Source: Giesbergeria sp. | Lineage (GTDB): Bacteria > Pseudomonadota > Gammaproteobacteria > Burkholderiales > Burkholderiaceae_C | DNA length: 23,782 bases | NCBI GenBank assembly: GCA_017987055.1 | Contig: JAGNUJ010000006.1 | Coordinates: forward strand, 1,483-25,264 | Reading direction: 5' to 3' | Shown here: piece by piece, positions 256 through 23,271 of the stretch | How positions within the stretch are numbered: position 1 is the stretch's first letter | Layout: every line of letters begins with the position of its first letter | The notes under the pieces: generated by a model | Databases searched by the model: none | Told to the model about the DNA's origin: nothing | Seen by the model: the letters and a program-made list of their open reading frames with translations, nothing else | Translations under genes and position numbers: made by a program

Positions 256-465
256 ATGCACCTCAATATCACCGTCACTGTCAATAACAAACCCTGCGAA
301 CTGCCCGCAAACGCCACCGTGGCCGAGGCACTGGCTGCCGTCCAAGCCCAGCTGCCGTATGCGGTGGCCGTCAACACTGCGTTTGTGCCGGCGGCCCAGC
401 ACGCCAGCCACCCGCTGCAAGACGGCGACCGGTTGGAAGTTATTTCACCTGTCACTGGTGGTTAG
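256..465 (+). CDS. thiS: Sulfur carrier protein ThiS
   Basis: A 69-residue ubiquitin-like protein ending in Gly-Gly (PVTGG), the diagnostic ThiS tail that is adenylated and turned into a thiocarboxylate, then gives its sulfur to ThiG for thiazole formation. The beta-grasp pattern is visible: MHLNITVTVNNKP, then ATVAEALAA, then the DGDRLEVISPVTGG end. Length matches the family (about 65-70). It lies between thiO and thiG on the same strand. There is no clear Shine-Dalgarno before the ATG, so it may be translated by coupling with thiO. The stop codon is followed directly by a dispersed repeat element (466-523). MoaD would be larger and would not sit in a thi cluster. Confidence 0.95.
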   Translation: MHLNITVTVNNKPCELPANATVAEALAAVQAQLPYAVAVNTAFVPAAQHASHPLQDGDRLEVISPVTGG

Positions 466-523
466 AAGGCTTTTTGGCCTCTAGCCCTTTAAATACGTGC
501 GCTAGCAGCTATCAATTTTGATA
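466..523 (-). repeat. Dispersed AGCTGCTAGCGC-type repeat, copy 1
   Basis: This element fills most of the 90-base gap between thiS and thiG and begins on the base after the thiS stop. On the minus strand it reads ATAGCTGCTAGCGC, then an A-rich part with AAAGGGCTAGAGGCC, then a short T/A run. CTAGC and GCTAG in it can pair as a 5-bp stem. It aligns without gaps over 58 bases to a segment inside folP (18177-18234; about 40 of 58 identical by hand), and its 36-base core aligns to 16451-16486 (23 of 36). Other copies are listed separately. Confidence 0.8.
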
Positions 524-555
524 AACCACTCCTTTTTATCTTTTCAATCTCTGCG

Positions 556-2325: not shown

Positions 2326-4677
2326 TCAAAAATCCATAGGCTTGCCCTTGTCATCTTCCAAATCAAAGCGGGCTTCAAAACGGTCGCTGACGGCACCAAA
2401 GCCAATCGACGCGCCTGGCGCTGGCGGCGGTGTCACGGCTAGCGCTGGGATAGCGCTCTCAGTCAAGAGTGGCAAATCGGCCAGCTCCAGCGCATTGGGA
2501 TCAGACAAATCCAAATCCAAATCCAAATCCAACGTCCAAGCGCTCTGAGTGGCGCGGGGCTGAGGTGCAGGTGCAGGCACAGGCGCTGAAGCCAGCGCCG
2601 CCCGGTTAGACAACTGGTGGGCATCGTACTCAATCAAGTTACCCAAGGCTGGCGCAGCTTGCGCGGCCTCCAAAGCCAAGCTGGCCTCAGACTGCGCCAC
2701 GGGCAAAGGCGCGAGCAAGGCCGCATCCAAAAACGGTGCCAAATCAAAATCCACCTCGTCTAACGCCGGCAAAGCGGCAGGCGACAAAAGGTCTTGCTCT
2801 GGCAAATTCAAGGGCTCCAGCGGCGGCGACTGCGCTGGCTCGGCGACGGTGTGCGGCATCGTGCGCTGACGCGGCGGTGGTGCGCCGCGCGTCTCGGCCG
2901 GAATGGTGCTGGCAATCGCGTAGAGCAACAGCAAATCGTCGTAAGCCGGCAGCTCAAACGGCTCGACCACGGTTTTTTGACCGTTGTGCTGACAAAAAAT
3001 ATAGCTCTCTAGCAACGCCAATACCGCGCTGTCACTCCACACAGCTTCGATGCTGGCCGCAACGTCGGGGTAGTCGAGCAAGGTGCGGCGGCCGCCGCCT
3101 TGGAAGGCTGAAAACTCGGGCACCAAGGCATTAAAGTGCTGCTGAAACTGCGCCCGCAAATCGCTGAAATCAGTGCGGCGGCTGAGTGAGCGGTACAAAC
3201 GCAACAACTCCAAATACATCAATGGCGAGGCAGTGCGGTTCTCTTCAATATGCTGCTTCATCACCTCAATGGCTTGCTCATGCTCGCCCACCGAGATAAA
3301 AAACTCAGCCTGCTGCTGCAAATCAAACAGCTCTTCAGGGTGCAACATGCGCACCGCCCCGACTGTCGCCGGCGCCAGCTCAGCGTGCGTCGCCTGCTGC
3401 TGCGCAGCTACGGCGGCATCTGCCGGAACGGGCATGGGCGCGTCAGGCGGCACCAAAGCAGCGCTCTTGGCCAGCGAAAGCGGTGCCGTAGCTGGCTGCG
3501 CCGCTGCGGTAGGGGCAGGCGCAGCCGCAGGCAAAGGCGCTGGTGCGGTCAGGCTCTCGGAATCGATCGAGGCAGCAGAGGCGCGCTCTTTGTCGCGCAA
3601 AGCCTCTGAATGGCTCCAATCTGAATCAAAACGCTGCACCGGCTTATAGCTGCGCATACGCTGCCACAGCCAAGCCAGTGCGGCGCATATCAGCACCAGC
3701 AAAGCCAGCAGGCTGTAGAGCAATGCGACCGGAAAGCGCTGGACATCGAGTGTGTCCACCCGCTTTTGCAAGGCGCTGACAGTGGTCTGCATTGTGGCGC
3801 TGCTGGCGCGAGCAGCGTCGATTTCAGCCTGCAACTGCTGCAAGCGCAGCTGGGTTTGCTGCACGTCTTGGGCAGAGATATTGAGCAGTTGCCACAGCGC
3901 GGCCGCCTGAGTACGCTGCTGGCTGGACTTTTCGCTGGGCTCCTGTTGCAACTGGGGCGACAGGCGCAGCGGCGCAAGGGTCGATTGCGCCAGCCAATCG
4001 CCCAGCGGTTCTACCGTGAGCCGGGATTTGTGCAGCGCAGCGGGCGCGCGCTCGCCAAGCGGGGCAGCGGCTTGCGCGCTGCCAATCTCCAGTTGCTGCT
4101 TCGGTGGTGTGGGCGACTTAGGCGATTTAGGCGGTTGAGGTGATTGAGGTGGCTTGGACTGCTTAGGCAGTTTGGCCGGTTGCGCTGTTTTGCTTGTTTG
4201 TACTACTTGTGCTGATGGCTCTGCTGCTTGCGCTTTTTCGGGCGCAAAAGGCTCCGCCGCCGCTGCAGGCGCAATCACCAATGGCCGCTTGCTTGCCACC
4301 AAGGCAGCGGGCACATCGGCAAAAAAGTCATAGTTACGCACCACGGTGCCCGAGCAACCCACAGACAGGCGCAGGCTCAAAATCGGCTCCATCACCACCG
4401 CCGAGGACAGCACCCGCACCGAAGGCGCGCGCCCCGCCAGCACCGGCAGTGCCGTAATGCGCAGGCGCGAATTGTCAATAAAGGTTTCGCCCGCCTGCAC
4501 CGAGGCGCGCACGCAGGCAAGGTTGAGCTCGGTGCCAGGGTCAGTGTGGATATCAAACACCAAATCCAAAGGCTTGCCAAGCAACACACGGCCATGTGCC
4601 TCGCCCAAAGACAAAGCGGAGGCGCTGGAAACAAAAAGACCTACTGCGAGGCCTAACAATGTGTTACTTAATTTCAC
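2326..4677 (-). CDS. FimV-like inner-membrane protein
   Basis: A 783-residue protein starting at GTG 4677 (no upstream alternative before an in-frame stop). Residues 1-21 are a signal peptide ending ASA. Residues 22-125 are a FimV-type N-terminal domain beginning LSLGEAHGRVLLGKPLDLVF. A Lys/Pro-rich stretch follows (about 165-195), then a coiled coil (about 267-312), one membrane helix (about 316-338) and an acidic Ala/Pro-rich cytoplasmic part with a TPR-like segment (HPEELFDLQQQAEFFISVGEHEQAIEVM) and the DLDLDLDL run near 716-725. This matches FimV/TspA-type proteins, which bind peptidoglycan and act in polar organisation, type IV pilus assembly or motility. I see no LysM motif, so cell-wall binding is uncertain. 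I leave the symbol empty because FimV homology is recognised by architecture rather than full-length similarity. Confidence 0.75.
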   Translation of the reverse strand: MKLSNTLLGLAVGLFVSSASALSLGEAHGRVLLGKPLDLVFDIHTDPGTELNLACVRASVQAGETFIDNSRLRITALPVLAGRAPSVRVLSSAVVMEPILSLRLSVGCSGTVVRNYDFFADVPAALVASKRPLVIAPAAAAEPFAPEKAQAAEPSAQVVQTSKTAQPAKLPKQSKPPQSPQPPKSPKSPTPPKQQLEIGSAQAAAPLGERAPAALHKSRLTVEPLGDWLAQSTLAPLRLSPQLQQEPSEKSSQQRTQAAALWQLLNISAQDVQQTQLRLQQLQAEIDAARASSATMQTTVSALQKRVDTLDVQRFPVALLYSLLALLVLICAALAWLWQRMRSYKPVQRFDSDWSHSEALRDKERASAASIDSESLTAPAPLPAAAPAPTAAAQPATAPLSLAKSAALVPPDAPMPVPADAAVAAQQQATHAELAPATVGAVRMLHPEELFDLQQQAEFFISVGEHEQAIEVMKQHIEENRTASPLMYLELLRLYRSLSRRTDFSDLRAQFQQHFNALVPEFSAFQGGGRRTLLDYPDVAASIEAVWSDSAVLALLESYIFCQHNGQKTVVEPFELPAYDDLLLLYAIASTIPAETRGAPPPRQRTMPHTVAEPAQSPPLEPLNLPEQDLLSPAALPALDEVDFDLAPFLDAALLAPLPVAQSEASLALEAAQAAPALGNLIEYDAHQLSNRAALASAPVPAPAPQPRATQSAWTLDLDLDLDLSDPNALELADLPLLTESAIPALAVTPPPAPGASIGFGAVSDRFEARFDLEDDKGKPMDF
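2506..2529. repeat. Four tandem CAAATC hexamers in the FimV-like gene
   Basis: Four perfect copies of CAAATC lie head to tail inside the FimV-like coding sequence. On the coding (minus) strand each reads GATTTG and gives Asp-Leu, producing the DLDLDLDL stretch near residues 716-725. Because the unit is six bases, slippage would change length without breaking the frame. Confidence 0.9.
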
Positions 4678-4784: not shown

Positions 4785-4833
4785 CAATTTTGATAGCTGC
4801 TAGCGCTTGTCAAATAAGGATTTGAGACTGTTT
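4785..4833 (+). repeat. Dispersed AGCTGCTAGCGC-type repeat, copy 2
   Basis: In the 220-base gap between the flavoprotein and FimV-like genes. It contains TTTTGATAGCTGCTAGCGC (4788-4806) followed by an A-rich part (AAATAAGGATTTGAGAC), the same order as copy 1 in opposite orientation. Just before it, GCTTGC (4761-4766) and GCAAGC (4774-4779) form a separate 6-bp inverted repeat. Confidence 0.75.
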
Positions 4834-4841
4834 CATATCGC

Positions 4842-4876
4842 AAACCTTTTATAAACGTGCGGTTTAAGCTATTGTT
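4842..4876 (-). repeat. Dispersed repeat, TTAAACCGC variant, copy 3
   Basis: On the minus strand the core ATAGCTTAAACCGC (4859-4872) replaces the usual ATAGCTGCTAGCGC. The same variant core occurs at 16473-16486, also between 3' ends or tandem genes. AAACC (4842-4846) and GGTTT (4861-4865) can pair as a 5-bp stem. It is 22 bases beyond the flavoprotein stop codon, so it could act as a 3' structure for that gene. Confidence 0.6.
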
Positions 4877-4897
4877 TTATTCGCATCTTTACAAAAA

Positions 4898-8338: not shown

Positions 8339-8629
8339 ATGAAAAAAGGCATTCACCCCAATTACCGCGAAGTTCTCTTCGTCGACCTGTCTAACGGCTT
8401 CAAGTTTGTTACGCGTTCGTGCGTGAACACCAAAGAAATGGGCCAGACCGAAGACGGCCGCGAGCTGCCCATGTACAAGCTCGATACGTCGAGCGAGTCG
8501 CACCCCTTCTACACCGGCACGCAAAAGTCGGTGGACAACATGGGTGGCCGCGTCGAGCGCTTCCGCAACCGCTTTGGCAAGACCACGGCGACTGCTGCAG
8601 CCGCACCAGCCAAGACAGCCGCAGAATAA
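8339..8629 (+). CDS. rpmE2: Ribosomal protein L31, type B
   Basis: A 96-residue large-subunit protein. I start at ATG 8339 because AAAGGA precedes it and [20 protein letters not shown] is the usual L31 beginning; an open frame extends upstream but would add unrelated residues. The zinc-binding cysteine pairs of type A L31 are missing; only one cysteine (RSCVNT) remains, which places it in the zinc-independent type B group (RpmE2). The body contains [26 protein letters not shown], the conserved C-terminal half. An Ala/Lys-rich tail ([15 protein letters not shown]) follows. It sits after rho and is closed by a clear terminator. Confidence 0.95.
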
Positions 8630-11771: not shown

Positions 11772-11792
11772 CCATGACAGCGCAGGCACATC

Positions 11793-11890
11793 AAAAAACA
11801 TAGCTAGTAGCGCACGTAAACAGTAGATTTCAGATACAAAACTATCTTAATCCGTTTAGATACGGGCGCTAGCAGCTCACTTTTTAATAT
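11793..11890. repeat. Two convergent copies of the dispersed repeat forming a long imperfect palindrome
   Basis: The gap between the MATE and binding-protein genes holds one copy on the plus strand (core ATAGCTAGTAGCGC at 11800-11813, then ACGTAAAC) and one on the minus strand (core AGCTGCTAGCGC, complement of 11866-11877, then CCGTATCTAAAC). The two face each other. The arms 11802-11821 and 11854-11877 pair with a few mismatches and a short bulge, leaving a loop of about 32 bases. Confidence 0.75.
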
Positions 11891-11927
11891 CTGCGGCACC
11901 ACTTCTTTATCGCTATCTCGGTTCCAT

Positions 11928-17874: not shown

Positions 17875-18729
17875 CTAGTTTATCGCAGCATCTGCCGCCA
17901 CCGTCTTGCGCCACACCGCCAGTGCCTGCACCGTAGCGCGTACGTCGTGTACACGCAGCACGCTGGCACCGCGCTCGGCGGCCAGCACCGCAGCGACCAC
18001 GCTGGGCAGCAAACGCTCGCCGACCTCCAGCCCAGTCACAACCCCCAGCGACGATTTACGCGACCAACCCGCCAGTAGCGGATAGCCCAACGCCAGCAGT
18101 TCACGCTGACGGGCTAACAAAGCAAAGTTTTGCTCGACAGTTTTGCCAAAACCAATGCCCGGATCGATCATTATTCGGGTCTTTTTGACCTCTAGCTCAA
18201 TCAATACGTGCGCTTGCAGCTCTAAAAATGAGAGCACCTGCGGCAGCGCATCACCCGCCATCGGCATGGTTTGCATGGTTTGCGGGTTGCCGTGCATGTG
18301 CATGAGGCAGACACCGCAGCGCGCATGCTGCGCTACCACCTGCGCCGCGCCCGGCTGGCGCAAGGCCCAGATGTCGTTAATGATGTCGGCACCCGCGTCC
18401 AGCACGGCTTGCATCACTTCGGGCTTGTAGGTATCGACCGATACCGGTACACCCAGAGTCACCGCGCCACGTACGATGGGTAGCACGCGCGCCAGCTCTT
18501 CTTGCAACGGCACGCGCGGACTGCCGGGGCGGGTCGATTCGCCGCCGATATCTAGGATGTCAGCGCCCTCTTGCAGCAACTGCTCGCAGTGGTGCAGGGC
18601 AGCAGCGGCCGAAAAATGCTGGCCGCCATCCGAAAACGAATCGGGCGTCGCGTTGACAATGCCCATGACGAGCGGGTGTTGCAAGTCCAGCAAGAAACGG
18701 CTGGTTTGCCAAAACATAGGCGTATTCAT
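17875..18729 (-). CDS. folP: Dihydropteroate synthase
   Basis: A 284-residue enzyme that joins p-aminobenzoate to the pterin pyrophosphate in folate synthesis. I start at ATG 18729 (MNTPMFWQTSRF) because further upstream the frame runs through a terminator hairpin; ATG 18717 is an alternative. No Shine-Dalgarno is evident. Motifs are MGIVNATPDSFSDGG (22-36), ADILDIGGESTRPGS (56-70), VSVDTYKPEV (97-105), MHMHGNPQTMQ (143-153), MIDPGIGFGK (187-196), AGWSRKSSLG (220-229) and LRVHDV (258-263), all matching an active enzyme. Residues about 166-185, just before MIDPGIGFGK, are encoded by a copy of the dispersed repeat (18177-18234). The helix is predicted to be retained but its sequence is unusual for the family. 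Confidence 0.95.
   Translation of the reverse strand: MNTPMFWQTSRFLLDLQHPLVMGIVNATPDSFSDGGQHFSAAAALHHCEQLLQEGADILDIGGESTRPGSPRVPLQEELARVLPIVRGAVTLGVPVSVDTYKPEVMQAVLDAGADIINDIWALRQPGAAQVVAQHARCGVCLMHMHGNPQTMQTMPMAGDALPQVLSFLELQAHVLIELEVKKTRIMIDPGIGFGKTVEQNFALLARQRELLALGYPLLAGWSRKSSLGVVTGLEVGERLLPSVVAAVLAAERGASVLRVHDVRATVQALAVWRKTVAADAAIN
18177..18234 (-). repeat. Dispersed repeat copy inside the folP coding sequence
   Basis: Aligns without gaps to the thiS-thiG copy (466-523): about 40 of 58 bases identical, and 39 of the first 50. Shared blocks include CTTTTTG, CCTCTAGC and AATACGTGCGCT. On the minus strand, which is also the folP coding strand, the core reads GAGCTGCAAGCGCACGTATT. It is read as folP residues 166-185 (LSFLELQ...EVKKTR) with the frame kept. 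Confidence 0.75.
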
Positions 18730-18739
18730 AGAACGACGT

Positions 18740-18765
18740 AAAAAAACGGGGACTCTGCCCCGTTT
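18740..18765 (-). terminator. Intrinsic terminator after ftsH, directly before folP
   Basis: On the minus strand AAACGGGG (complement of 18758-18765) pairs with CCCCGTTT (complement of 18744-18751), 8 bp with a 6-base loop, and is followed by a run of seven T (18746-18740). It lies 36 bases past the ftsH stop and its T run ends 10 bases before the folP ATG. Confidence 0.85.
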
Positions 18766-18801
18766 GGTGATGATGGCCAAGTGCCATCTTGGCCTGCACT
18801 T

Positions 18802-22818: not shown

Positions 22819-23271
22819 TCAGTCCAGCGGGCGTGGCGTGCTACGCAAGGTCTGCCACAGCACCGCCAGCGCACAAGCCCACTGCGCCACATACAACCCG
22901 CTGCCCACGCTGTGCCACAGGCGTAAATTCTCACGCGCGACAATGCGCGGCGCGACGCCAAACTGCGATAACAGCGCCAGCAGCATGCCACCCAATATAA
23001 AAATGATAGCTGCTTGCGCCCACGGATACTGCGTTACAGAGCCTTTTGGCCTTGAAATCAGCAACAGCACTACGGCGCATGCTATCGAAACCCAAGTTTG
23101 TGCGGCAAACAAACGCGCCGCCATACCGCCAGCCAGCGCCGGTGTTGGCAAATGGGCAAACAACAAAGGCACGACCAAAAACCCCACCGTGCTCAAGCTG
23201 CCCCACCACAGCGCAGCCACCAGTGCCGGCAGGCGCGAAGGCTGGACGGCGGCGCTAGAGGGAGAGGGCAT
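22819..23271 (-). CDS. DUF4149 integral membrane protein
   Basis: A 150-residue protein with four hydrophobic helices (about 14-38, 55-72, 87-103 and 121-141). The first helix LVAALWWGSLSTVGFLVVPLLFAHLP and the C-terminal VAPRIVARENLRLWHSVGSGLYVAQW are the conserved parts of the DUF4149 (TMEM205-like) family, which has no established function. The ATG overlaps the greA stop by one base (TGATG), so it is probably translated by coupling from greA. Residues about 72-91, the loop between helix 2 and 3 plus the start of helix 3, are encoded by a copy of the dispersed repeat read backwards. The frame remains open, and rare codons such as ATA appear there. Confidence 0.85.
   Translation of the reverse strand: MPSPSSAAVQPSRLPALVAALWWGSLSTVGFLVVPLLFAHLPTPALAGGMAARLFAAQTWVSIACAVVLLLISRPKGSVTQYPWAQAAIIFILGGMLLALLSQFGVAPRIVARENLRLWHSVGSGLYVAQWACALAVLWQTLRSTPRPLD
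22999..23056 (+). repeat. Dispersed repeat copy inside the DUF4149 coding sequence
   Basis: Contains ATAGCTGCTTGCGC (23006-23019), then CCACGGATACTGCG, then ACAGAGCC and TTTTGGCCTTGAAA, the same order as the intergenic copies (core, A/T part, GAGGCC end, T/A run). The gene is on the minus strand, so the element is antisense to it and gives residues about 72-91 (ISRPKGSV...AAIIF). Alignment to copy 1 needs one or two small gaps. Confidence 0.7.

Follow-up and report, generated by a model that had tools for sequence, protein, structure and literature searches.

A Comamonadaceae repeat in frame inside folP and at orthologous sites in other housekeeping genes

Accounts of small repeats within genes usually treat them as insertions by which the gene product gains a peptide. 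REP sequences are imperfect palindromes of high copy number that are found mostly between genes, while DNA uptake sequences sit seamlessly inside genes where the encoded peptide permits and occur as lineage dialects. Part of the relevant literature covers the REP / RAYT system (available parts of PMC3733652). The Rickettsia palindromic elements (RPE), about 150 bp in length, are inserted into genes so that their peptide is fused to the product (Ogata et al., 2000, 2002, as related in the available parts of PMC10969869). BRE, the beta-proteobacterial repeat elements, measure about 90 bp, average 69% GC in Bordetella and reach at most 29 copies, with 1 and 4 copies in two Acidovorax (Hot et al., 2011; available parts of PMC3110155).

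The repeat considered here belongs to a family of the Comamonadaceae with a consensus of about 65 bp. It is present in the window, the whole 23,782-nucleotide stretch of Giesbergeria sp. DNA that was analysed, whose source genome (G000; 1.68 Mb, 61% complete) is accompanied by 25 other genomes in its genus group. Roughly one copy every 4-7 kb is found in the two sampled genomes, G000 and G009. Of 275 first-look candidates 40 were scored, and all 40 matched; within 205,750 bases of G000, 31 places agree with the consensus at 27 or more of 38 positions, a level that 40 shuffled consensuses never reached (none above 25). A 68-position matrix recovers 46 places of at least 14 bits in the same bases and 58 in 400 kb of G009, and no place at that threshold in the reversed sequences of either sample. 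Among the matches listed across the genus, the repeat core is 37 nt long, where the search pattern permitted 27-49. Rfam returned no match at gathering thresholds within the window, and no description of the repeat or of its core letters was found among the open-licence PMC papers listed.

The consensus contains an imperfect stem. Some copies seemed to change in pairs, but stem covariation was dropped as an idea when the tested stem positions of the 58 G009 copies displayed no excess of compensatory changes. Two opposed and diverged fragments adjoin one another in intergenic DNA at 11790-11882 of the window and could pair as a long hairpin. The three adjacent middle bases of 50 G000 copies read AAG in 39, TTG in 7 and otherwise in 4, and such linked subfamilies point to copying by descent. 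On crude gene models, the 58 hits in G009 comprise 36 intergenic, 8 overlapping gene ends, 9 coding sense and 5 coding antisense copies in a sample that is 87% coding, and the 50 in G000 comprise 34 intergenic, 4 gene-end, 3 coding sense and 9 coding antisense copies in a sample that is 90% coding. Genes are thus disfavoured yet permitted as sites, and orientation is not fixed. One intergenic copy is kept in three genus-group genomes directly upstream of the apparent start of what we take to be ruvC (L230, L231 and L216, near 3130-3230).

High copy number, an imperfect palindrome and mostly intergenic placement are traits shared with REP sequences; by inspection, the 32-copy consensus bears no GTAG or CGTC tag. 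Competence and the Y1 transposase were considered as partners of the repeat and set aside, as neither tracks repeat content in the genus. The transposase domain PF01797 occurs in 22 of 26 genomes, including the repeat-poor G001, G015 and G022 (it was not found in G000, which is incomplete, or in G011, G014 and G024), and ComEC (PF03772) occurs in 23 of 26, the three where it was not found (G000, G013 and G015) all being incomplete. Like DNA uptake sequences, the repeat is seamless in folP and trpF; unlike them, it is far longer, falls into linked subfamilies and has at least one clear insertion, between thiS and thiG. BRE elements also occur in Comamonadaceae and are mostly intergenic, with some copies wholly within coding sequence (available parts of PMC3110155), whereas the present repeat is shorter and AT-richer, numbers 29-381 first-look candidates per repeat-rich genome and is set apart from BRE by description. 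The intragenic RU elements of enterobacteria are likewise small mobile repeats in genes; however, their units span 103-168 bp, and the available parts of PMC2759123 do not describe family-wide, length-preserving sites. The nearest idea to the repeat in folP is that of the RPE, small interspersed repeats that lie in frame in unrelated metabolic genes and are tolerated by the protein (available parts of PMC10969869). In the same way as RPE in protein genes, the present repeat lies in frame inside folP, aroE, trpF, pepN, priA and comEC. In contrast to RPE, it occupies about 61 nt while FolP and TrpF keep their length (that of the PepN and AroE regions does vary). Its sites lie at orthologous places in many species and are lacking where the repeats are lacking.

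Table 1. Features of the window related to the repeat family and to folP (positions counted from the first base of the window).
Feature	Position	Strand	Remarks
Repeat, full-length, between thiS and thiG	461..528	-	85.3 bits
Weak repeat copy	4821..4888	-	14.9 bits; GATAGCTGCTAGCGC fragment at 4792-4806 (+)
Diverged repeat copy	11828..11895	-	25.4 bits; opposed fragment 11790-11818
folP (dihydropteroate synthase) ORF	17875..18780	-	301 aa from TTG
Repeat-like segment in folP	18176..18236	-	61 nt, sense, in frame, no indel vs homologs
Lineage-specific patch in folP segment	18191..18217	-	most differences from sister folP match own repeat
Diverged repeat copy	22990..23057	+	22.2 bits; antisense within predicted ORF

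For the product of the folP gene of the window (Table 1), PF00809 is found in each FolP among the 120 matches listed, 44 distinct solved chain sequences were matched, and Simplicispira psychrophila has the nearest FolP with a species name, at 82%. Translation is likelier to start at the downstream Met18 than at the TTG, and with that start the residue numbers 166-185 assigned to the segment in a preliminary description, made from the letters of the window, are correct. The same description had counted by hand 40 of 58 identities between folP 18177-18234 and the thiS-thiG repeat at 466-523, with 39 in the first 50; recomputed without gaps, the count is exact. Identity rises to 83% over a 46-nt core (470-515 against 18181-18226), and the runner-up ungapped place in the 23.8-kb window (34/58 at 11789, minus strand) lies on another repeat fragment. 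A matrix built from the genome's own repeats gives the segment 45.7 bits. The segment agrees with each of two 38-nt repeat consensuses at 32/38 positions, where 40 letter-shuffled consensuses attain a maximum of 21-25 of 38 anywhere in 206 kb of G000. The match is thus far above background by this control and by the synonymous recoding described below, as the preliminary description expected when it called chance similarity unlikely. Read in sense and in frame, again as first described, the segment encodes VLSFLELQAHVLIELEVKKT immediately 5' of RIMIDPGIGFGK. Its placement on a helix agrees with a predicted FolP model (mean pLDDT 81.7), in which the segment, about residues 182-202, would take up most of a predicted helix at 178-195 and the loop after it, ahead of a predicted strand at 203-206.

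The resemblance goes beyond what the peptide dictates. Each of 84 folP genes (loci extracted by regular expression; tblastn gives 105) was rewritten in synonymous codons according to that gene's codon usage; z is above 3 in 27 of them for the general repeat consensus and in 18 for that of G000. Three hundred control consensuses, their letters permuted within codon-position classes, average 0.38 folP genes above that value, with a maximum of 12. Mean z is 1.90 for the general and 1.72 for the G000 consensus against a control maximum of 1.39, figures that overstate significance because related sequences are not independent. The typed consensuses used are approximate in their last bases, though observed, recoded and control comparisons share one string and the matrix score agrees. 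In 27 of the 31 folP genes with the better of their z values above 3, this site is the only sampled offset to reach that value.

The signal also follows the repeat content of the genome. With 74 genomes having both values, divided at 18 candidates (a cut set after seeing the data, on counts of first-look candidates, not confirmed copies), z exceeds 2 at the folP site in 43 of 52 repeat-rich genomes and in none of 22 repeat-poor ones (maximum 1.8). A matrix from real copies recognizes 47 of the 52 and again none of the 22 (maximum 1.3). The folP DNA of repeat-poor relatives differs at the site, and neither of the two outcomes that the preliminary description had named as refuting was encountered. 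The folP z correlates with repeat content (Spearman 0.58; 0.60 controlling for GC). Independent contrasts over 65 tips of a tree of the flanking ftsH and glmM give r = 0.38 (sign-flip p 0.014), and r = 0.46 (p 0.008) with third codon positions alone; contrast signs agree in just 32/64 (30/64 for third positions), so it is the larger contrasts that make the association, and the small ones carry no signal. Some repeat-rich genomes have z below 1: both scores give this for L099, L070 and L060, and the first score alone for L069. Carriers of the folP site fall in both deep halves of the midpoint-rooted tree. A repeat-poor clade of G001, G015 and G022 (support 1.0) sits among repeat-rich genomes in a midpoint-rooted tree of the focal genus, with neighbouring supports of 0.89 and 0.75, which suggests that its state is a loss. 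Repeat copies are scarce or absent in these three genomes, and the signal is weak or missing at the four tested sites within genes, with one aroE locus at z 2.2. The clade offers a naturally occurring control for whatever keeps the repeat in place.

Other enzyme genes carry the repeat in the same manner. In-frame sense hits in Pfam-supported ORFs were found in aroE and fmt of G000 and in pepN, trpF, priA, comEC, dsbD and an acyl-CoA dehydrogenase gene of G009. Of these, aroE, pepN and trpF alone were traced across the genus, each having its match at one place: z exceeds 2 in 19/19 trpF, 19/19 pepN and 23/23 aroE loci of repeat-rich genomes, and in 0/3, 0/3 and 1/3 of the repeat-poor ones, values slightly raised by the register shift of up to 9 nt that was allowed for the real and not for the recoded sequence. 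TrpF length is constant across 22 loci, whereas the PepN of repeat-poor genomes is shorter by 6 residues and the AroE of the G000 group longer by as many as 10. Within the aroE 3' flank, an alignment places repeat copies at one place in three genomes, with no clean empty site. The Formyl_trans-domain gene of G000 (L151:2357-3328, minus strand), presumably that of methionyl-tRNA formyltransferase, has its in-frame match of 42 bits at 2496, in the C-terminal domain. In G009 the signal-peptide region of DsbD (L200:8470-10725, plus strand; hit at 8544) is repeat-like at 52 bits and reads FALVFIAASAGWTSANAQFS.

The family does spread by insertion, as the preliminary description supposed. From a list of 26 ThiG matches, two fragments and a 58% paralog were set aside; among the 23 loci examined, the thiS-thiG copy is present only in G000; the 22 other full loci lack it, with best matrix scores of -31 to -68. 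Aligned with G013, the G000 spacer is longer by a net length of about 42 nt (an ORF in another frame was used, so that length differences are meaningful and absolute lengths are not). MITEs have terminal inverted repeats and duplicate their target; alignment of the insertion with four relatives reveals no clear target duplication by eye. This copy is a true recent insertion.

The folP segment has a different history. A lineage-specific insertion in FolP, one of the outcomes first envisaged, does not hold: the segment is without indels among the 120 proteins listed (P0002 being that of the window), and the best solved homolog (2y5j, 2y5s), which we take to be Burkholderia cenocepacia FolP, aligns gap-free across it. 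P0018 and P0020 possess two additional residues, which lie in the motif after the segment. At the same place, sister folP genes already agree with the consensus in 31-32 of 42 positions, against 36/42 for G000. The match is best read as an old, length-preserving in-gene copy and not as a fresh insertion. A repeat element accommodated in an essential enzyme, as initially proposed, thus stands in principle, the family being a spreading one and the copy in frame and sense, while the detail of its insertion falls. The companion idea of a lineage-specific replacement fails for the segment as a whole, since orthologous sites resemble the repeat in the majority of the repeat-rich Comamonadaceae tested, and survives for a patch of about 27 nt inside it.

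In that patch, changes in the lineage of the window lean toward its own repeats. Consensuses were taken from copies, and differences from two sister folP genes (L112 and L116) and one other (L113) were scored as toward or away from them, the three comparisons sharing the same focal changes. With the TTG type the ratios are 8:1 for L112 (permutation p 0.0008), 7:1 for L116 (p 0.003) and 11:1 for L113 (0 of 5000 permutations). Because this type was picked once the match was known and is built from 7 copies, all 50 own copies are reported beside it: 7:2 (p 0.02), 6:2 (p 0.055) and 11:2 (p 0.0006), respectively. The AAG type gives 7:3 (p 0.07), 6:2 (p 0.06) and 11:2, and the repeat family of other genomes 3:3, 2:1 and 8:4. 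Expressed over all scored differences for two sisters, 8/9 and 7/8 go toward the TTG type and 7/9 and 6/9 toward the consensus of all copies.

Individual copies come close to the folP sequence. A 32-nt tract of folP agrees at 28/32 with two own repeat copies and at 24/32 with sister folP, and positions 18190-18214 match a repeat copy on contig C33 at 24/25, where either sister reaches 18/25. A second copy (L016) has 19 exact bases in common with folP, further 5'. This longest exact match was rejected as proof on its own, other folP 61-mers reaching up to 18 in the same sequence. Translated by hand, the C33 copy reads AHVLIGLE, as do the FolP proteins P0004, P0006 and P0007 of near relatives, and the majority repeat type reads AHVFKGL, as does P0014. 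Intermediate peptides (HVLQGLG, QVLIGLEV, HVLIGLEV and HVLIELEV) also fit stepwise substitution.

A further dialect involves an Ala/Gly codon of folP, which was compared by eye with the repeat types AAGCGCTAG and AAGGGCTAG in some genomes. G-type repeats accompany Gly in G057 (4/4 listed copies), G059 (5/5), G070 (2/2) and G074 (8/8), and C-type repeats accompany Ala in G027 (11/11), G028 (11/11) and G036 (13/15). G026, with C-type repeats and Gly, is an exception, and G024 and G031 are mixed. The comparison searched 49 of 80 folP loci on genome contigs and comprises few independent events; it lends support, and only support, to the lean toward own repeats.

On balance, the account we favour is that the folP segment is an old member of the repeat family, in register and length-preserving, which has been rewritten in patches from resident copies. 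The site would have turned repeat-like early in the family, at a helix with most residues free. Short patches would then have been rewritten from the genome's own repeats by gene conversion or by annealing of repeat-derived single strands, the last one in the lineage of the window perhaps coming from the TTG-type subfamily. Loss of the repeat would remove the source, and the site would drift to ordinary codons. Such conversion or strand annealing would explain at once the constant length, the direction of change and the dialect of the folP site, and the mechanism, the repeat-to-folP direction and the origin of the repeat-like state are inferred. The recoding excess, the association with repeat content, the lean toward own repeats, a near-identical donor candidate and the pattern in trpF, pepN and aroE speak for it. 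Against it, the direction test is weaker with the unselected consensus (p 0.02 and 0.055). Ordinary recombination is disfavoured by the shortness of the blocks identical to any single copy, the longest exact one being 19 nt, which is below what ordinary homologous recombination usually requires. The broader proposition that the repeat serves as a standing pool of templates, rewriting segments of FolP, TrpF, AroE and PepN in place without indels, is more tentative and somewhat short of an even chance; such rewriting would probably reach more enzymes than these four.

The main rival is a functional DNA motif that would serve protein binding, DNA uptake or the organisation of the chromosome. Selection or uptake bias would assemble it by point changes wherever a site permits, and folP would be one such functional site. 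We regard it as a serious though rather unlikely alternative. The orthologous sites in folP, trpF, aroE and pepN are weak or absent together with the intergenic copies in G001, G015 and G022, in-gene hits occur in both orientations, and the lack of compensatory pairing in the 58 G009 copies is what a motif read as sequence would show. However, the net insertion between thiS and thiG and the linked G000 subfamilies point to copying, and no co-distributed machinery was found, ComEC being present also in the repeat-poor G001 and G022.

Chance would require that the codons of a conserved peptide happen to resemble the repeat and that drift in one lineage raised the match. The flanking FolP peptide FL..A..L.GLGV is indeed conserved in the protein alignment, sister folP genes already match as noted above, and the direction test taken alone is moderate for the unselected consensus. 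Yet the synonymous-codon test with its controls, the split by repeat content and the three other genes contradict this explanation, which appears very improbable.

Slightly less credible still is a birth of the family from a folP fragment, with folP as the source. Length and register agree without any indel, and each in-frame stop of the general consensus (TGA, TAG and TAA) is, by inspection, one base from a folP codon. On the other hand, trpF, pepN and aroE carry the repeat too, partly in another frame; the folP feature that relatives have in common, TTTTTAGAGC, is unlike the typical repeats of G000 (ATTGATAGC and similar), and the G000-specific middle of the folP site is common to many other repeat copies. 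Least probable of all is a fresh insertion into folP in the lineage of the window, for although the repeat does insert, as between thiS and thiG, the constant FolP length among the 120 proteins listed and the repeat-like sister genes contradict it.

Returning to the favoured account of patchwise rewriting from resident copies, the repeat here occupies orthologous sites in several housekeeping enzymes, two of which keep their length unchanged. If the repeats do act as a pool of templates, parts of essential proteins would track a non-coding repeat, and ordinary evolution would resume once the repeat is lost. Conversion would mean that the evolution of essential proteins takes direct input from non-coding repeats, while selection for a motif would mean a genome-wide DNA function, so far unrecognised, in Comamonadaceae. 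With either cause, the shaping of coding sequence by repeats becomes testable in cultured species.
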